From contig JAHBMJ010001291.1 of NCBI GenBank assembly GCA_018398765.1, positions 1 to 30,000 on the forward strand: a stretch of DNA of 30,000 bases, in the 5' to 3' direction. Below the pieces are notes generated by a model. That model saw nothing but the letters and a program-made list of their open reading frames with translations, was not told where the DNA came from and did no database searches. Below are positions 5,971-26,663 of this stretch, piece by piece. A program made the position numbers and the translations under genes. Positions within the stretch are counted from its first letter, which is position 1, and each line of letters begins with the position of its first letter. The DNA is from Chromera velia. Lineage: Eukaryota > Sar > Chromeraceae.

Positions 5971-5980
5971 AGTCACCACA

Positions 5981-6789
5981 TGTTGCGGACTTCTTATCTG
6001 ACTCCGGAACCTTGGTAGCGTTTTGCTGATAGTAGGGTAACTAGTATGCTGAAGTCACTTGAGGTTCACTTCTTAGGAGTTTTCTTAAAGGCTGGAGGGT
6101 TGATGTCGGAAGTCCTCTGTCCGAGATGGGTCCGATGAAATGACAAGATGAAATTTGATTTTCAACATCTCCTTCTGTTTGCTCTTCCAAAAATCCAAGT
6201 CTTTCGCTTTTCACTCTTCCATAAGGACTTCCATAATTACTTTCCTCTGTATTGATTTTACCTCTATTCCTTCCAACACCTCTTCCTTTCTCTCTTCCGT
6301 TTTCTGTATTCCATTCTGGTCGCTCTCTATTTATTTCATTTTATTTTTCTTCTTTTTCCTTCCATCTTCTCTTCCTTTCTTTCTTCCTTCCTCTTCCTTG
6401 TTTTTGACAAGGCCCCTGGAAGAGGCTCTTCCGCTCGGACATGCCATGGCTCGTCGAGGCCCCTGAAAGAGGCTCTTCCAACTCTTTTTTCATTTTTTCT
6501 TCCATTTGCTCTGCCGTTCCTTCTTCCATTCCTTCTTTCATTCCTTCTTCCATTCTTTCTTCCATGATAGAATTCAACAGTCTTTTCTATTTAATAGGTA
6601 TGGACATCTCCATTAAGACTTCAAGGTCATTTTCTTTTTCTCGAGATCTACTTACATCCTCAATTGTTTTCTCCTTTCCTTTCACTTTTATTTTTCTTCC
6701 CTCTATATCATACCAAGTAGGCTTTTAGCAGGCAAGACATACTTGGAAGTTATATCCTGCTACCACAGCCTACTTGGGAGTCCGTAACA
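5981..6789. mobile_element. ~810-bp terminal-inverted-repeat element, copy 2
   Basis: This is a near-identical direct copy of 883-1693. The left end TGTTGCGGACT and the right end AGTCCGTAACA are inverted repeats of 11 bp with one mismatch, better preserved than in copy 1. Small indels in the pyrimidine-rich middle distinguish the copies. The same minus-strand lysine/glutamate-rich peptides appear, again with internal stops. The two copies lie 4.3 kb apart with no reverse transcriptase, integrase or gag motif between them, so they are not read as LTRs. Confidence 0.65.
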
Positions 6790-7095: not shown

Positions 7096-7473
7096 CCACC
7101 TGTGGAAAAATTATTTTACCCTTCTTGCTAGCCCTAACTCTTCAACTACCCATGATATAAAGCTGATATTTAAAGAAAATCTTATGACAACTGGAGACTA
7201 TTTTTTCATGATATACAGATAGTTTTGGGATGATTCAATAATGATATATCAAAGATTATATTTTTCAAAAAAGTTGGAAAAAAATTAAATTTCAAAACTT
7301 ACATATTTTTTATAGTTTTTTACCTTTACAATCTACTGACTCTATGAATTTTGAAAATTAAGGATTTTAGACCCTGCACTCTATAACTAAGTAGATAATA
7401 TTTTTAGGGACTAAATTTAGAACATGCAAGAATTTTTGGCGATTTTTTTCATCAATAATTTTTCCACAGGCGG
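7096..7473. repeat. Left terminal block, MITE-like, 378 bp
   Basis: This AT-rich block starts CCACCTGTGGAAAAATTATT and ends AATAATTTTTCCACAGGCGG, so it carries 20-bp inverted repeats with a single mismatch at its own two ends. It is directly repeated at 14990-15338. It has no coding capacity. By itself it would be called a MITE, but its inner end runs straight into the core unit without a TA. Confidence 0.8.
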
Positions 7474-7648
7474 AACGTCATTTTTCAAAAAATCATCTAG
7501 CTTTAAAATAAAGTACATATTCAAAGTGTTTTCTAGACTAAATAAAAAACCAATTTAACAAATAAGTCAAAGAGATATTATATAGCTTCTGATGTTGTTT
7601 AGTTTATACAATGTACACAAACATTTTTTTTGAAAAGTTGTCAATTCT

Positions 7649-14989: not shown

Positions 14990-15338
14990 CCACCTTTGAA
15001 AAAATTATTTTACCCTTCTTGCTAGCCCTAACTCTTCAACTACCCATGATATAAAGCTGATAATATTTTTTCATGATATATAGATAGTTTTAGGATGATT
15101 GAATAATGATATATCAAAGATTCTATTTTTCAAAAAAGTTGGAAAAAAATAAAATTTCAAAACTCACATATTTTTTATAGTTTTTTACCTTTACAGTCTA
15201 CTGACTCTATGAATTTTAAAAATTAAGGATTTTAGACCCCACACTCTGCAACTAAGTAGATAACATTTTTAGGGACTAAATTTAGAACATGCAAGAATTT
15301 TTGGCGATTTTTTTCATCAATAATTTTTCCACAGGCGG
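14990..15338. repeat. Right terminal block, MITE-like, 349 bp
   Basis: This is a direct copy of 7096-7473, shorter because of an internal deletion of about 30 bp after ...AAAGCTGATA. Its inner (left) end is decayed (CCACCTTTGAAAAAATTATT). Its outer end AATAATTTTTCCACAGGCGG is intact and is followed by TA. Confidence 0.8.
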
Positions 15339-15340
15339 TA

Positions 15341-16201
15341 CGCGTAACAAGATATGTCCTGGTGCTTATAGCACCTGGTACTACCTGGTACAATCTGAAT
15401 AATTTTGGACTAATTAGGATCCTGTTGTGAATTTATACGAGGAATTTATATTGATTTAGTATTCTACTTAGTATTCAGACTTTTTTAATTATGAATTATT
15501 CGAAATAATTCAGAACTAACAGAAACTTATAATAATGCAGAAACTAACCAGTCTTATAGAGCTAGTACTCTTATCACGTGTTACTTAATGCGCGGATATG
15601 AGTAGTAATGAGTAGGTAAAGAAACAGATAACTAGGTAAGTGATAAGTGATTTATTAGTGTCCTCGAGAACCATCGCCGTTCTGGCTAAGTGTAACTAGT
15701 AGAATTGTAACTCGGACCGGGTTACTAGGTTGTCGAGAAGTATCGAGAAGCCTGTTTTTCATTCTGAAAGGGCCCGAAAGAACTAGCTTGAAAGGGGCCT
15801 GGCCGGCATGTCGGCCCATGCATGTTCTGTCGGGCTTTCTTGGCCTTGGGGTTGCATATGGTTGCATGCGTGCGGGGGCCCCCTGCATTGAAAAGTCCCA
15901 AAGATACACGCACGCCACCGCTGCATGACTGGCAACTTGTTCTGTTCAGAGTTTCATGCAACTTGGGCGTCTCATTCTCAATCGTCTGGGACAGTGTGGT
16001 CACTGTTGGGGTCTCGGACAAGCCTGATGATTTGCTGAGGTCTTCCTTTTGATTTTTGAGACGGTTAACTGGGCCGAGCATGAGACACCGCAGCCCGACA
16101 GAGATCCTGCTGGATTGTTGTGGGTGAAGAAAGAGAGCGGCTCCTTCCTGTTCATCGAATCGAAGAAGCTGTAATGCGGTGACTGTGCGTGTCGAGCAGT
16201 A
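15341..16201. other. AT-rich spacer, then upstream region of the channel-like gene
   Basis: Bases 15341-15650 are AT-rich with no gene recognised. Bases 15650-16201 have higher GC and lie immediately upstream of the first predicted exon of the plus-strand gene, so they should hold its promoter and 5' leader. No TATA box or initiator could be assigned with confidence. The long minus-strand frame across 15725-16438 is treated as antisense noise. Confidence 0.4.
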
Positions 16202-19200
16202 ATGTTGGAGGTGCTGGAAAGGCAGTTGGGATATTCTTCCGACTGCCCAACGGCTTTTGCGGGAGGGAGACGGAAGGACACGGAGGAAGAACAGGATCGT
16301 CTGACAGAAATCAGAGACGAAGATTTCAGAGATTATGGGAGCGTACAGGTCAAAAGATCGATCTACACTCACTCGGACAGAGAGAACCCTGATCCCTTTT
16401 TCGTGACTTCCTCCTTCTTTTCCCCTTCTCACGACCAATCTGGATCACCTTCTTGGACTTTGAAGGACCATCAGAGAGCAAGAGGACAAGTCTGGACGGA
16501 CAGTAGCCAGCTGAGGTTCCTTCTCCAGAGAGACCTCTTGAGTCGCGAGTGGGTCGTGCAGAACCAGGCTGTGCTTTCGGTAGGAGGACTTTTGTGCTTT
16601 GTCCTTTTGGTGGGGTAAGTTCTGTTCGTAGGGAAGGAGGGTGTCGGAATCTCTCTGCGGGGAAACATGAAGGGGTGTGTGCGGAAGTGCCCTTCCGTCG
16701 CCACCTCTTCGGATGCCTGCTTGCTTTCTTTCCAAATTTCCTCGCCTCACCCTGCAATCACTAGGCCGGAGGAGTACCCTGCAGCCTATGTGCCATACTC
16801 CCTGTGTGCGTGTACGTGCTGGTCGTTGTTGGGATGAATTTTCCTCTCTTTTCGTGTTTCCTCCTCCTCCTCCTTCCCCCCAGAGTCCTGTCTATGCGTG
16901 GGTGTGGTCTTCCCCTTCCTGCCCTTCCTGCCCTGCCTGATGCCTCTCCTTTTCTCTCGGTCTGCTTGTCTCTACTGCTTGTGTTTTGTCTTCAGTGCAC
17001 CCGATTCATTTTTTTCTTTTTTCCTGTTTATTTGTGCTGCAGGACGATTGGTTTCTCCTGCCTCGAGAAATGGCCTCTCTGGGACGCGTTCTGCTTCTCT
17101 CTGGTTAGTGTGGCTGGCAAGGAAAGCGAAGGCCTTATTGCCAGAGCAACATGAATTCACTTGAAGGAAAGAACCTCATTGGCTGGAGAGGACAAAGAAG
17201 TGGCGAGGGACGTCTGGTTAGCTGATTGAGAAGTGACAATTCAGTATTGGTCCCTCTTTTCTCTGTTGACTATCGGCATGTGTATGGCATACACAACAAA
17301 CGCGCAGCTTTTTCGATGTGAGCGGAATTGCGTTTTTTCCTTCTGCCATCCGAACGATCGGTCGATCGCAGAGGCTTTCTCCTTTTTCTTCTTCTCATGT
17401 TCCAACCCCCCTTCACTGCATTCTGTGCACCCTCACTTGGCCGCTTTGTTCCCTTTTCTTCGCACTTTAATTCCGTTCGGACTTCGCGCTGACCCTTTCT
17501 TGTTTGTCCGGTGTGGAATATAATGTTAGTTTTGGAAGCAAACGCTATCGTGGTGGTAATTGGGTTTTTTCTTCCATTTCTGTCTCTTGCAAGCAACGGG
17601 GAGGAGATCGATGGTCTTCTCAACAAAAGAACAAGTCAACTTTTCCCCTCTGCCATCTGCCTCTTGTTTCCTCTCCCCCCAATCAGGCCGACTTGCGTCT
17701 TGATTTCCCCCTCCTTCCCTCTCTCCCTCCCTCCCTCCCTCCCTCCCTCTCGTGCATGGATGCAGGAGATCTTCACGAGGCTGGGGGGCGTGAGGGACCC
17801 TCATCTCTTCCTCAGGGGAAGGGGGGGCGTGCCTCTGTGGATGGGGTACACAGTTGGGAACAGCGTGGAGGCCTCGCGTCTTTTCTGCTCTGCGTTCATG
17901 GTTCTGTCGTCAGTCGATCTATCTGTTCGTTCTGTGAATGGCCAGAAGTCCCTCTTCTCTCTTCGCTTTGGAACCGTTTTCGAGAGGTTAAAATTTTGAG
18001 TGAGTTTCTCAACGTCGGTCCCCATCTAAAAACCTCTTGATCTCGTCCCTTCTCGAGTGTACGGGCGGCAGTTCAGATTGAGCCACTAGTGTGGTAACCC
18101 TGCTCTGTTTCGTAAAGTGTGTTGTTCGGGGTTTTTTGAAACACATTCTGCTGTTCTCTCCTTTCCCTTTCCTCTGCCCCCCCGCTCCTTGTACGTAGAC
18201 AAGGCGCTTTCGCTCTGCTCTTCGGTCTGGTTGCAATTGGGGCGACTCGGGTGCGACGAATGAGGAGCGTCCTCTTGACTCAGGGGGGGAGAAGCGAGGT
18301 GGGTTGGCTCGGGTCATCACATTGATCGAGGCACTCACCTACCTGTCTTCTGCTGGTGTGGCCAAAGCACCTTTTATTCCCCTCTTTTATTTCTCAAAAC
18401 GCTCATTTACGGTGTGTTCCCGCCTCTTTCCTCAAAGCGCTACCATGCCGTACGCCTTTTTCTCCTCAAGGCACTCACCTATCCTTCCCTCTCTCTCTTC
18501 TCCCTTCACGCATGCATGCATGCATGCAGTCCCTGACCTGCTGGGGGAAATTTCACGACGACCTGCGGGTGTTGGTGGAGGGCCTGGCGTTCGTCTCCTT
18601 CCTCATGGCGGTCTCAACGGTCGGTCTGACTGTCTGCCTGTGTGTCTCTAGGTCTGTCTGACTACATGTATGTTTCTCAAGCTCTCTGAAGTGAATTCAG
18701 GCAGAGCAAGGGAAAAGGGAAAAGAAAAGCCCTGCATTGCAAGATGGGGTTTGTAGTGTCCACACATCAATGGGAGGATCTGGTGATGCATGGTGATGTG
18801 AGGTTTCTTTCTATTCTATTCGTCCAAATCCAATAAATCGAACTTCGACCTGTCCATCTCTAAGAGGCGTTCGTGTGGTCGACAAGCTAGGTTGGGTGTG
18901 TCTGCAGAGAGAGGCGTCAGGGGAGAGGGAGGGGGGGAGGGACAGGTCGTAGAGAAAGAAGAAAGTGACCATGGCATGTAGCCGTGGGATTCCGTTTCCG
19001 TCGATGCATGCACAGCTACGGAGGCTGCATGGGTCCAACCAAAGCTTTCTGTGGTCCTCTCCCTGAGCTTCTTTCTGTCTCTGTGCAGTGCTGGTTCGTG
19101 TGGACGGAGCAGTGGACGGTCAGCGAGGGTTCCTTCTTTTGCGCCTCTCTGTACTCAGCAACCGCTCTGGGAGGTCAGTCAGTCCATCTCTCTTGCTCTC

Positions 19201-21186
19201 TCTGTGCTCATGAATGCATGCATGCGTGCGTGCGTACCTGCGCGTTTGTGAAAATGTGTGAGGGAGAGGGAGACAGTCAAATTTTGTGTTTGCGGAGAAG
19301 ACAGAACACCATTCTCAGTACGAAATAGACTTTGAGAGAGCCGCAATTTTATGTTGCTGGATTTCAGGAAAAATGAGTCCGTCGTATGTGATGCATGCGT
19401 GCATCCGTGTAGGACTGTCCCGGCAGCTGCGTGCCTGTCCGTCTACCCTTTGTTTCTCTCTGTCTCTGCGTCTCTGTCGGTTTGGTTACCACGGTGGCGC
19501 ATTTGGTTTTTGTGTAAGACGGGGCCTGAGGTCTCTCTCTCCCTTTTCAGATCTGCGATCCTTTGGACGGATCGTTCGGTGCATGTGCCCTTCTTTCCTT
19601 TTCTTCCGTCTTTTTCTTTCTTTCTGTGTGCAGATCTTTTGCCTACCTCCCCTATCGGCCGTCGTTCTCTGCCGGTGGTGATCATCTTCGGGGTTCTCCC
19701 TGTCCAGATGCTTGTGGCAAGGGTGAGTGAGTGAGTGCATGAGTGAGTGAGAGGGTGGGTCCATGGGTGGGGCCGGCTGATTGTCAGAATGTCCGTCCGT
19801 CCACTCAAATCGCATGAGGGACTCAGCAAAACACTCACGATGTAGGGAGGGGCTTTTGGGCCATTCTTTCATTGGGTCCGGTCGATTGTGCGCACAGAGG
19901 CTTCAGGTGTTTTCTCTAGGTTGGAGCCTGAAGGAAGAGCTTTGCATCTAGGGAGAGCAGTCAGTGGGTTTTCTCTTCTTTTTTGTCGTTTTGGGCTGAC
20001 AGGTCGGCGTGGAGATATCCATGCAGGCACACCTCGATCCTCTCACAGATCCAGTTCCCCTCCGTTTCCCTTTGTCCTCTTTCTTTCCACCCGTCTCGAT
20101 CTGCAGATAGCTGGTGTTGCCGCTTGGTGGAGCCTCGAGAGGGCAGATCGGGCATCCGGTCTACTTCTCACCAGAGGCACGACAAAGAAAGGCTCCATTC
20201 TACATGAACATTCCGAACACGAGCAGGGGCACCACCATCTGAAAACGAACGTCCGGGAGACGGGGAGAAAGAAACCCATCGTCAGCTTCGCAGCAGCAGC
20301 CCCGCCTTTAGGCTCCGCTCTCTTCAGCACCCCATGCACCCCCACACCAGTCAGACTACACACAAAAGACACCCCCGACGTCTTTCCTGTCCCCCACCGA
20401 AGTGCTGAGGTCCATTTTCAGCCAAGTGGGTTGATTATCGGGGGTGACGGTGCAGAGGAGGGAGGTGATAGGGGTGATGCCGTCTCAGTTGCGCCTTCCA
20501 TGTCTGTCAGCATGACGGCGACCGATCTCGGCGATCCCCCCCTTATCTGCTGCACTTGCTGTAGTCAGATTCCTTCAACCAACCTGCATCAACCCCCCAC
20601 TAACAAAGCCCTTTCGCCTCCTCCCTGCGACTCTTCTGAAGTGTCAGAGGAAACAAACAATCCCCAAATTAGCCACAGACTTTCAGACGATTCCATTCCG
20701 TCTTCCTCTCTTCCCTCTGAGACTTCCCCCGAGGAATTCAACTCATTCCTCGTCTCTTTCCTGCTGAAGTCAAAGAGACTCAGACACTCTGAAGTCCAGG
20801 CAGCTCTTGCAGAGTTTTCCAGTCGGAAGCTTTGCGCAAATGGAGAGGAGAAGGGAGGGCAGGAGGTGTGCAAGAGACAGACGGGGAGCACTGTGGTGAC
20901 ATGCCGCACGGATTCCCACTGTGAAGACTCAGAGAGAGGCTCTTCGGGAGGCCTTCTTAGTTGCCAGTGGAGCAACCAGGCTGACGAGAGGGTTAGGGGT
21001 GAGAGCAGCATGATGGCGGGTGAGAGAGCGAGAGAGAATTTGTGGCATTCTGACCCTTCTGCTTCACAGCAGCAGCAGCAGCAGCTGCACCATGGGGTGT
21101 CCTCAGGTACTCTCTTTGCTGCCCTGAGTCGCCTCTCTTCAAGTTCCTCTTCGGGGCCTCCGACGGAGATGGTGGAGTCCGACTAG
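16202..21186 (+). CDS. Two-pore-domain K+ channel-like membrane protein lacking GYG filters
   Basis: Seven exons are predicted: 16202-16614, 17043-17103, 17766-17924 (end least certain), 18530-18619, 19089-19173, 19634-19722 and 20107-21186. All phases match and the sum is 658 codons plus stop. A TAA lies in frame just upstream of the ATG. M1 is about residues 122-146, followed by the pore helix after EKWPLWDAFCFSL. M2 is about 180-208 and M3 about 223-246. EQWTVSEGSFFCASL leads the second pore, and M4 is about 282-305. The halves align with each other: FC-x-SL, three residues, T-x-LG, then GR and a Pro. In two-pore channels T-V-G-Y-G lines the selectivity filter, but here the loops read TRLGGVRDP (162-170) and TALGDLLP (266-273). 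Long cytosolic N- and C-terminal tails are predicted, the latter Ser/Pro-rich with a Q6 run. The role is inferred from topology. It could be a diverged non-selective or non-conducting relative, or the splice model could miss a microexon. Confidence 0.55.
17104..17765 (+). other. Intron 2 of the channel-like gene
   Basis: The donor is GTTAGT and the acceptor is ...TGGATGCAG. The 3' part holds a (CCCT)n microsatellite at about 17715-17750. Frames at 17233-17523 and 17511-17999 run through it. A segment near 17255-17325 (SLLTIGMCMAYTTNAQLF) has a faint filter-like look but has no acceptor that would place it correctly. Confidence 0.45.
17925..18529 (+). other. Intron 3 of the channel-like gene
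   Basis: The donor is taken as GTTCGT at 17925. GTGAAT at 17934 or GTTCTG at 17901 would also keep phase 0. The acceptor lies at the end of a TGCATGCATGCATGCAG run (18511-18529). A GGCACTCACCT word occurs twice (about 18329 and 18470). No exon could be placed inside. Confidence 0.4.
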
Positions 21187-23350: not shown

Positions 23351-23747
23351 TCCACGCCTGCGGTGCAGACTTTCAAGCTTATCCAAAAATGCGGCTTGAA
23401 CTTTCAAGTGGTAGTTAGGTTCAGAGAGGTCCTTAGCCTGAGAGTTTTTCTTCAGATTTACTTTAATACGTGCAGCTACTTACTAGAGCAGCTCGCAAAT
23501 GAGCCAATTCATTTTTTTGTTGTATAAATCATCCTATAATTAGGATGGAAGCTAAGGAGGGGGGTTTGAAGTTAGGAGCTTAGGCTAGGCCAAGGGGATG
23601 ACGTGCTAAGTACTAGGCTAAGTACCAGGCTAGATGGAGGGGTAGCAAAGATTAGAAAGGGTTCAAAGTAGCAGACTAGTCATCTATAAGGATTAAAGAT
23701 TAATGATTAATGTTCGGAGGATTGGCCTCCCGCCCTAATGCCCTAAT
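23351..23747. other. Spacer, no gene recognised
   Basis: This is AT-leaning sequence between the hAT-like element and the 252-bp repeat. It holds small duplicated words (ACTAGGCTAAGTACCAGGCTA near 23610, GATTAATGATTAATG near 23697) and nothing larger. Confidence 0.5.
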
Positions 23748-23999
23748 GTTGTGTGGTGCCTCAGCTAAGACGTAGCTTGGAAACACACACTTACAAGGTC
23801 TGTCATACAAGGGTTCTGCTTCTAGAGACTGTTATTAACATACGAAAGCTTGACTCACGATTGACTGCATGCATGCGCATGACCTAATTGCAATTCCTTT
23901 AATTACATGTACGAGGTCGCTCGGGATGCGCGCACTTCATACAATCCTGACATACGATTTGTGTGCCGTAGCGCGGATTAAAGGCCTCGCCACGTTACG
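23748..23999. repeat. 252-bp direct repeat, copy 1
   Basis: It begins GTTGTGTGGTGCCTCAGC and ends CCACGTTACG, and is closely matched over the same length at 26412-26663. It contains TGCATGCATGCGCATG near 23865. No target duplication and no TG...CA ends were found, so it is not called an LTR. Class unknown. Confidence 0.8.
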
Positions 24000-24478: not shown

Positions 24479-26167
24479 CTACTGGATGCCACAATACTGC
24501 ATCTCCGACTCGGTTGGCCCTACAACCACCCCCGGCTCTTTCCCATCTGTTTGATCCGAGTCTCCGTTAGCTTGGTGCTGCTGCTCTAATGGAGGTTGTG
24601 GACTGATAGAAGATTGTGCTGAAGTGCGGGCGGTCCGTACGGTCCTCATCTGCCGCACTGCAGGTCTCACTTTTGGCACACACGGCATCATACCCCCTCC
24701 ATTTCCATACGTCTCCCTGTAAAATGTTTCCCCTATCTGCCCACACCCACGACATGCCAAAAGTGCATACCAGTCTGCAGTGCCAATTTCCTGAACATTC
24801 GGAATCAAGTCTTCCCTTCCCAACCGAAAACGAAAAGACACATCCTCCCAATACTCATGCTGGAGTGGATCGCGCAGTGGGACAGTCACTGGCGTCTTTG
24901 GCTTTTCATGAGCTGCCCGCTTCTTCTCTTTTTTCCTGTCCTTCGCCTCCCTTCTCTCTTGCTGACGCCTGGCCTGACGAGACAGTGTCAAACCATCAGA
25001 CGAGACTGCAGGTTCCTCCACTCCTTCATTAATTAGAGGCAGAGGAGACCAAAGGCTGTCCATCTCCTTCTTTCGCCTCACAGCCAACATCTCCTTTTTG
25101 TGCTTTTCCTGCCTCTTTCTCTCCTTTTTCTCTTGGCACTTTTGTTTCTGTCTCTCTATTTTCTGCAGATTTCCACCGTCAAAGTCATTTCTCTACCTAC
25201 CTGTCTCTAAACAGTTGTGTTGCAAAGACGTACTGTGCGGTCTCTGGCTGTGGATTTCCTTTCTCCGCTCCCAACTTCTAACTCCATACAACGACTCAAA
25301 CAGGTCCTTTCCCACACCTCCTTCTTCCTTCCTACTCTTTCCGATCCGGCATAGCTCTATTGGAGTGGGCTCACTCATTTGACCATCCCCTCCGGCAAGA
25401 GCCATCACAGGGGGTCCATCGCAACGATTGAAATCGAAAGTCGTATGAGATATTGGCAATAGCACGCCTCCATCTCCACTCACGGGTACAGGTCCTCCCT
25501 GCACAGGCATTTCCGATCTTATCATTTCTTCCTGCTGGAACGACTGACCAACACGGTTGTTGTCTCCATGCACAGGCTCCTCGGCACGCAAGCCATCGAA
25601 TCCTTCCCCATGAGGCATGTCACTCACTCTCCCATTCCGTGCAGACAAATCGATCTGAGGGTGAGGCAAATTGGTGCCGAACCCCCTCACAGTTCCCTCC
25701 TCCACACAGAATTCCGAGGTAGGGGTACCCGGGAGTATGATGCTACTGCGTGTGGGCTTGCATGCAGGCCTTGAGAAGACGTCTCTTGAATGCCCATTTG
25801 TTTTACTTCCCACCTCTTTCTTTTTCCTCCTTCTTCCCACTGCTGGGTTCTTATTCTTTTGTTTTGGAGACGTTTTGGCAGCAGTTTGACTGCCTGTCGT
25901 CCGCATCCACTCAGCTGCTGTCATCCAACGACTACGCCGAGTCTTTGATTTCTCCTTCAAGGGCGTATCGGTAGACGGCGTCAAGAAGTTCTCCCCCCTC
26001 TCACTGTCAAGGGGACCGGCAATGTCTAAAAGTCTTCGGGCAATCTTTTGGCCTTCTGAAAGCAAAGATTCTCCATCCTCCTGAACTTCCATGAACGAAA
26101 CGGACTTGAACTTGTCAAATTCGCGCAGGCAAGAGAGGAAACGAGCGTATCGGTCAGGTACTGACAT
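24479..26167 (-). CDS. Two-exon gene, 547-residue protein of unknown function
   Basis: Exon 1 runs 26167-25201 (322 codons plus one base) and exon 2 runs 25155-24479. They are joined across a 45-bp intron with donor GTAGGT and acceptor AAAATAG, and the phase fits (1 to 1). A nearer acceptor, ATCTGCAG, would put exon 2 in a different frame. The N-terminal half is polar with basic stretches (KTRRSRW, VGRRRKKKEVG) that could be nuclear-localisation-like. The junction leads into a charged coiled-coil-like run (ERQKQKCQEKKERKRQEK). After it a more ordered segment contains DWYALLACRGCGQIGETFY with two close cysteines. I recognise no family. Start ATG 26167 begins MSVPDRYARFLSCLREFDK. The gene lies between two 252-bp direct repeats, which may have been inserted independently. 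Confidence 0.55.
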
Positions 26168-26411
26168 CTTCTAAAACGAAAACAACGAAATGAACAAACG
26201 GATTGATGACAATCAAAACAAACAAATACAATGACCGATAATGAGACAGCTCTATTCTAGGTACGTTTGTGTAGGGGGTGCGTGCAAAGCTCGGCGCTTG
26301 ACTGCAGTCGAGACAACGCTACAGTGATACACCTGAATGCTGTTCACGACCAGATGGTCAGCGAACTCCCCCTCTTCCTGAGCGGATCGTACCGCTCTGC
26401 CACCATCTAAC

Positions 26412-26663
26412 GTTGTGTGGTGCCTCAGCTAAGACGTAGCTTGGAGACACATACTTATAAGGTCTGTCATACAAGGGTTCTGCTTCTAGAGACTATTATT
26501 GATATACGAAAGCTTGACTCACAATTGACTGCATGCATGCGCATGACCTAATTGCAATTCCCTTAATTGCATGTACGAGGTTGCTCGGGATGCGCGCACT
26601 TCATACAATCTTGACATACGATTTGCGTGCCGTAACGTGGATTGAAGGCCTGGCCACGTTACG
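26412..26663. repeat. 252-bp direct repeat, copy 2
   Basis: This is the same length and orientation as 23748-23999, with scattered substitutions and no net indel. It lies about 245 bp upstream of the start of the 547-residue gene, so it may overlap that gene's promoter region. Confidence 0.8.

Follow-up and report, generated by a model that had tools for sequence, protein, structure and literature searches.

Apparent replacement of both selectivity filters in a two-pore channel homologue of Chromera velia

Gene model and family assignment

The stretch of Chromera velia DNA analysed here (contig C1289; its full 30,000 bases are the window) carries at positions 16202-21186 of the plus strand a gene that looks real and has an intact reading frame, and that encodes a predicted channel-type membrane protein with two pore loops. 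The model, derived from splice sites and phases, comprises eight exons and 665 amino acids (aa); all seven introns are GT-AG and the phases agree throughout. It supersedes the seven exons and 658 residues of a first-pass annotation made from the sequence alone, whose exon 5/6 junction is the exon 6/7 junction here. Judged by sequence and exon structure, the gene is a member of the two-pore channel family by descent, with the TxG[YFL]G filter lacking in both pores. The features of the model, with transmembrane helices numbered TM1 to TM4, are the following.

16202-16614, plus strand: exon 1, cytosolic N-terminal stretch and the greater part of TM1 (hydropathy peak at about aa 122-145); ATG open frame, GT donor, ends in phase 2
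17043-17103, plus strand: exon 2, 61 nt, end of TM1 and pore-1 helix (W-PLWDAFCFSL); phase 2 in, 0 out; exon matched in C2555 and C280
17766-17845, plus strand: exon 3, pore-1 filter region and first part of TM2, between an AG acceptor (phase 0) and a GT donor (phase 2)
17775-17795, plus strand: pore-1 filter position, T-R-L-G-G-V-R in place of T-T-V-G-Y-G-D; register from the Trp, the exon 2/3 intron as in C2555 and C280, and the KCNK9 alignment
18199-18298, plus strand: exon 4, TM2 and the first part of the loop that joins the two halves; phases 2 to 0; KCNK9 alignment ungapped over the inner helix (E 0.05)
18530-18619, plus strand: exon 5, loop and TM3 (by hydropathy); phases 0 to 0
19089-19173, plus strand: exon 6, 85 nt, last part of TM3, then the pore-2 helix and the filter as far as base 1 of the Asp codon; exon matched in C1061 and C2555
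19155-19173, plus strand: pore-2 filter position, S-A-T-A-L-G-(D) in place of T-T-V-G-Y-G-D, the D completed by 19634-19635; register from ungapped BLAST with C2070 and spacing with C1061 and C2555
19634-19722, plus strand: exon 7, remainder of the D, LLPTSPIGRR and TM4; phases 1 to 0
20107-21186, plus strand: exon 8, end of TM4, long Ser/Pro-rich tail and stop TAG; lies within a 446-codon stop-to-stop frame

Hydropathy alone gives four membrane helices, at about residues 116-151, 178-206, 226-256 and 278-316, and a weaker stretch at 362-383 that barely passes the threshold. Helices 1 and 2 flank one pore loop, and helices 3 and 4 flank the other; TM1 ends at about residue 145, and the pore-1 Trp is residue 148. 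The C-terminal tail, about 350 residues long, is rich in Ser and Pro, and Pfam gives no domain there.

Searched against Pfam, the whole model matched Ion_trans_2 (29.7 bits, E 5.9e-7, cut-off 22.5), in two stretches at an E limit of 10, and no other family up to that limit. The pore-2 half alone also scored above the cut-off (26.6 bits, E 5.6e-6). In a single-sequence search of the PDB, K2P channels ranked first, weakly (KCNK9 and KCNK1 at E 0.05-0.23), and a profile of six own-genome pores (A3), one of whose rows is pore 2 of this gene, matched TOK and K2P structures at E 7.8e-17 and weaker. Profile searches without a hit to potassium-channel pore domains, which the first-pass annotation had named as a refutation, thus did not result. 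The two-pore assignment draws on the pair of Ion_trans_2 matches, on the four helices predicted by hydropathy and on exon lengths and phases indicative of common descent; the TxG[YFL]G filter is absent from pore 1 (TRLGGVR) and from pore 2 (SATALGD). Because it is absent from both, we refer to the product as a two-pore channel homologue and not as a potassium channel.

The relationship is also written in the exons. Own-genome comparisons cover 177.8 Mb in 4040 contigs (assembly G000), and the relatives on contigs C1061, C2555 and C280 were compared by their pore exons, not by full gene models. C1061 and C2555 each have two pores, in order and on one strand, and one pore was observed in C280. 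This gene, C1061 (88069-87985) and C2555 (7084-7000) all have a pore-2 exon of 85 nt that is entered in phase 0 and left in phase 1. The exon after it starts with DLLPTSP here, and in-phase candidates for the same exon start with DFVPSSE in C1061 and DLLPSDD in C2555, the latter picked by eye among 11 listed candidates. Likewise, a pore-1 helix exon of 61 nt, entered in phase 2 and left in phase 0, is common to this gene, C2555 (9356-9296) and C280 (2515-2455); C1061 has the acceptor of this exon in common with the gene and no intron at the exon's end.

Filter sequences of the two pores

Neither pore of the model contains G[YF]G, as the first-pass annotation had noted, and pore 1 reads T-R-L-G-G-V-R as it had stated. 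The relatives all retain G-x-G, unlike this gene: the filters are TVGFGD and STGIGD in C1061, TVGYGD and STGFGD in C2555, and TVGYGD in the one pore of C280. Compared with C1061, three of the seven filter positions are changed in pore 2 (S to A, G to A and I to L) and six of the seven in pore 1; over both pores, 8-10 of 14 filter positions differ from the relatives or from TTVGYGD. The pore-2 region as a whole is 21-26% identical to five other own-genome pores.

In pore 2, the second filter Gly stands 20 residues from the pore Trp, exactly as in eight other own-genome pores (both pores of C1061, C2555 and C2070, and those of C3454 and C751, with C751 and C2555 pore 1 joined over an intron; the count is inapplicable to pores that have no Trp there, such as those of C643 and C298). 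S-A-T-A-L-G-D then aligns with S-S-T-G-I-G-D of C1061 and S-S-T-G-F-G-D of C2555. When the pore-2 exon is slid by two residues, with two residue pairs fewer, the ungapped BLOSUM62 score falls from 35 to 5 against C1061 and from 38 to -20 against C2555; the exon's scores against these two were equalled by 2/20000 and 1/20000 shuffles, respectively. The best BLAST match of pore 2, to C2070, extends over 43 residues with no gap (E 6.8e-6). Against 13 own-genome pores, 10 subjects gave alignment rows, and in nine of the nine that reach the filter SATALGD is paired with a G[YF]G filter with no internal gap. The suggestion that pore 2 misses two residues between G and D is therefore refuted by the Trp-to-Gly spacing, the length of the 85-nt exon and the slide scores, and in these alignments pore 2 is altered by substitution, not by deletion. 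The spacing and the slide scores also rule out a filter of the CNG-like type, in which the motif is TIGE with the Tyr-Gly pair missing and the distance from pore helix to filter end is two residues shorter.

The apparent loss arises from an internal repeat. As first described, both halves contain FC-x-SL and, three residues further on, T-x-L-G, with a GR pair and a Pro close to where the next transmembrane helix starts, and this pattern stands; the two halves are, however, not in homologous register, since the repeat begins at Trp+6 in pore 1 and at Trp+8 in pore 2. This offset of two residues yields the seeming two-residue deficit in pore 2.

For pore 1, the count from the Trp sets T-R-L-G-G-V-R against M-T-V-G-Y-G-D of C2555, and the scores of the pore-1 exon against C1061 and C2555 were equalled by 5/20000 and 2/20000 shuffles. 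The KCNK9 alignment crosses the pore-1 filter ungapped, with a two-residue gap immediately after it. MAFFT favours a one-residue gap at the Tyr, and pure substitution is for this reason uncertain here; pore 1 may instead have lost the Tyr and undergone additional changes.

Introns lie at both pores, and the one placed by the first-pass annotation within the second filter is indeed there, in the Asp codon, in phase 1. The gene model could thus be wrong, with a true transcript that gains a canonical filter through a microexon or through other junctions, and a channel in this same genome, on C751, demonstrates that an intron can lie inside a filter. We regard such an error as highly improbable. 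Exon lengths and phases are common to the relatives, and since the same 85-nt exon with the same phases recurs in them, the Asp-codon intron is an old feature of the family and the step from G to D requires no microexon. Furthermore, the three plus-strand frames of 16202-21186 contain no contiguous G[YF]G, and their single GLG is outside the frame of exon 8. We enumerated splice models with GT or GC donors, AG acceptors, introns of at least 35 nt and at most one extra exon (for pore 2, shorter than 60 nt), looking for [TS]x(x)G[YFLW]G or G[YF]G[DNE]. For pore 2, the pattern occurred in 0/192 in-frame single joins and 0/9102 in-frame models with one added exon. For pore 1, it occurred in 4/6048 (2066 open), 0/3322 (3206 open) and 0/1932 (498 open) in-frame models, and the four matches are chance GWG peptides in which the pore helix is cut or overrun. 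A missing short microexon or a shifted junction, which the first reading had kept as its alternative, is accordingly rejected on the enumeration together with the exons and phases common to the relatives. C751 was also considered as a model for an intron-linked loss of the Tyr-Gly pair and rejected: its intron, placed by eye, is in the first Gly codon, in phase 2, in what seems to be a single-pore channel, and is non-homologous.

The wider genome gives the background for these filters. A whole-genome Pfam search at E up to 10 found at least 25 Ion_trans_2 matches, all of which were translated; these counts are lower bounds, and the gene's own exons are not among the listed matches. G-x-G is kept in all 21 matches that cover the filter (19 G[YF]G, one GLG in C985 and one GIG in C1061 pore 2), and in the other four an exon edge interrupts the match ahead of the filter or within it (both C751 halves, C985 at 9834 and C3454 at 49761). 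A search of the genome with a 221-aa core of the protein gave 10 matches, of which eight fall on the eight exons of the gene itself, at E 6.1e-4 or better, and two are weak (E 0.77 and 1.3); the gene appears to be single copy in the assembly.

Several of the other loci are of interest in their own right. Pore 2 of C1061 (88069-87985, L033) has the uncommon filter S-S-S-T-G-I-G-D, with Thr for Val and Ile for Tyr. In C751 (17971-18570, L036), the intron splits the filter into TVG and YGD, and a domain of regulatory appearance, judged by eye, follows. One of the 19 G[YF]G matches, on C5 (14057-14257, L026), reads VGYGD and contains an in-frame TGA, which could mark an unrecognised intron or a decayed copy. 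No pore motif was found on reading C1933, and a pattern search of viral contigs gave no relatives. The genome also contains 58 light-harvesting matches, which mark its owner as photosynthetic; for one of them, the closest PDB entries carry a mixture of the names LHCI, FCPI, Lhcr and ACPI, which suggests a red-lineage antenna.

Possible function, frame constraint and surrounding DNA

In potassium channels, the filter T-V-G-Y-G aligns backbone oxygens and, at site S4, the Thr hydroxyl. In the present protein, the S4 Thr would be replaced by Arg in pore 1 and by Ala in pore 2, the first filter Gly by Ala in pore 2 and the second by Val in pore 1, and the Tyr by Gly or Leu; if pore 1 is aligned without a gap, the Asp that follows its filter would become Arg. 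The 19 residues from the pore-1 filter onward have a net charge of +3, compared with 0, 0, 0 and -2 in four other pores. A dimer would form a pseudo-tetrameric pore lined by two copies of each loop, and a filter replaced in this way is not expected to bind or select K+ in the usual manner. From the residues alone, normal K+ conduction appears improbable. The first-pass annotation had proposed a two-pore protein with altered or lost K+ selectivity; the channel-type protein and the alteration of both filters are borne out, whereas the change in selectivity is something we infer.

Constraint probably acted on the reading frame during the filter changes, which does not amount to proof of a present-day protein. 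In simulated decay, no run of 400 was free of stops by the time seven filter changes had accumulated (mean 15.3 stops), and stop-free runs numbered 6/400 at three changes, 1/400 at five and 0/400 at six; the simulation used substitutions only, counted stops only, started from the present sequence and ignored indels, and recent loss is still compatible with it. These numbers bear on the possibility that function has been lost and the gene is turning into a pseudogene. Alteration of both filters, the low identity of the pore-2 region to other own-genome pores and the repeat-rich DNA around the gene would all fit decay, which we nevertheless hold to be unlikely in view of the eight GT-AG exons with agreeing phases, the 665 open codons and the absence of stop-free runs at six or seven filter changes.

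Since the gene has preserved its fold, exon set and reading frame, and the genome also encodes relatives whose filters are ordinary, we take a silent or dominant-negative partner as the likeliest role. The gene would then encode an intact, diverged two-pore member (four transmembrane helices, two pore loops) with both filters replaced, a reading to which we give about an even chance. As a non-conducting subunit, the protein could pair with the two-pore relatives that retain G-x-G (C1061, C2555 or C2070) and thereby silence, sort or retune them.

Alternatively, the protein could by itself form a cation channel with weak or no K+ selectivity. The pore helices, the second Gly and the Asp of pore 2, and the inner helices are retained, and there are channels of this kind elsewhere: TcCat of Trypanosoma cruzi conducts cations, weakly selectively, although it has no T-X-G-Y(F)-G (partial text of PMC3369953), and NaK, with TVGDGN, is non-selective (partial text of PMC9822992). 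On the other hand, the Arg at the cavity-facing S4 position of pore 1, the replacement of the first filter Gly in pore 2 and of the second in pore 1, and the net charge of +3 in the pore-1 stretch would be hostile to cation flow, and we consider this reading clearly less probable than a silent partner.

The same arginines admit a different proposal, in which the subunit has exchanged K+ selectivity for another permeation, for example of anions or large cations, either alone or as a filter-replacing partner in a heterodimer. The paired arginines at the S4 position and the arginine-rich outer mouth would then act as the filter; we think this very unlikely. Another possibility is a role without ion flow, for example as a membrane scaffold acting through the tail of about 350 residues. 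That tail is long, Ser/Pro-rich and free of Pfam domains. Low-complexity tails are common, however, and although no more specific point speaks against such a role, we attach little credence to it.

Several observations weigh against an intact homologue acting as a silent partner. The pore-1 half alone scores below the Ion_trans_2 cut-off (15.7 bits, E 0.014), and the assignment of pore 1 also rests on the exon common to the relatives. A hidden Markov model of 13 own-genome pores (of the 16 matches then known, C3454 at 50380, C3451 and C751 were excluded) places a six-column gap before L-G-D in pore 2 and hardly recognises pore 1, with 1.3 bits at the best stretch. With the longest frames at four other channel loci as training set, codon usage favours the model frame in five of the eight exons, which is weak support. 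Moreover, constraint on the gene is deduced from the intact frame alone, and the silent-partner role is based on analogy. In our view a silent partner is the most likely role, a weakly selective channel comes next, and decay follows.

The DNA around the gene is rich in repeats. Between about 7444 and 14641, the window holds three tandem copies of a 2506-bp unit, which agree by 92-99% in the segments reported. On the minus strand, every copy carries one long frame of 233-332 aa and another of 185-249 aa; in two of the three copies the latter contains CX2CX4HX4C, as judged by eye, and the three of the six frames that were scanned against Pfam gave no match above the cut-off. Direct repeats, 93-94% identical, pair 878-1177 and 1291-1590 with 5976-6275 and 6387-6686 (5.1 kb apart), 7194-7477 with 15059-15342 (7.9 kb apart) and 23743-23999 with 26407-26663 (2.7 kb apart), as if they were terminal repeats of mobile elements around the gene. 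At 24479-26170 on the minus strand, two adjoining long open frames of 237 and 325 aa, with no Pfam match over the cut-off, are possibly one gene.

Comparison with known channels

The animal K2P channels (KCNK1, KCNK6 and KCNK9) and fungal TOK share the two-pore core and match this gene in pore and inner-helix sequence. They carry TxG[YFL]G filters, however, which this gene does not. Animal K2P channels also have a cap between TM1 and the first pore loop, and there is no room for one in the few residues that separate the end of TM1 from the pore-1 Trp. The TPK channels of plants and algae have two Ion_trans_2 units and no cap, like this gene; the C-terminal EF hands of plant TPK were not found in the model by Pfam at E up to 10.

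In a survey of plant and algal TPK channels (PMC8619664, partial text), second-pore filters range to complete absence in green and red algae, and variation in the first pore is limited to the Tyr in these algae and wider in photosynthetic bacteria; the survey also cites work in which GYGD of the first pore is essential and that of the second less so. In contrast to the green and red algal TPK channels, in which the first pore varies at the Tyr only, the first-pore filter of this gene is lost as well. Arabidopsis KCO3, a TPK relative, is described as probably inactive as a channel and yet of physiological importance (PMC7757853, partial text); it has one pore domain, whereas this gene retains both pore loops with changed filters. 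The GYX proteins of Leishmania, Trypanosoma and Trichomonas are changed at the second Gly, and those of Leishmania group with KCa2/3-like channels, not with two-pore channels.

Among the titles and abstract openings surveyed in the openly licensed literature, for several searches the top-ranked ones, none describes this gene or any two-pore channel that lacks both filters. Loss of a filter is known from the second pore of algal TPK channels (PMC8619664) and from single-pore relatives (PMC3283738), as far as the partial texts of these sources go. The present gene goes beyond these precedents in that both filters are lost in one two-pore chain. Filter loss in both pores of an otherwise intact protein, alongside ordinary relatives that share its exons, constitutes a natural experiment on which features of a channel fold selection preserves after K+ selectivity has been lost.

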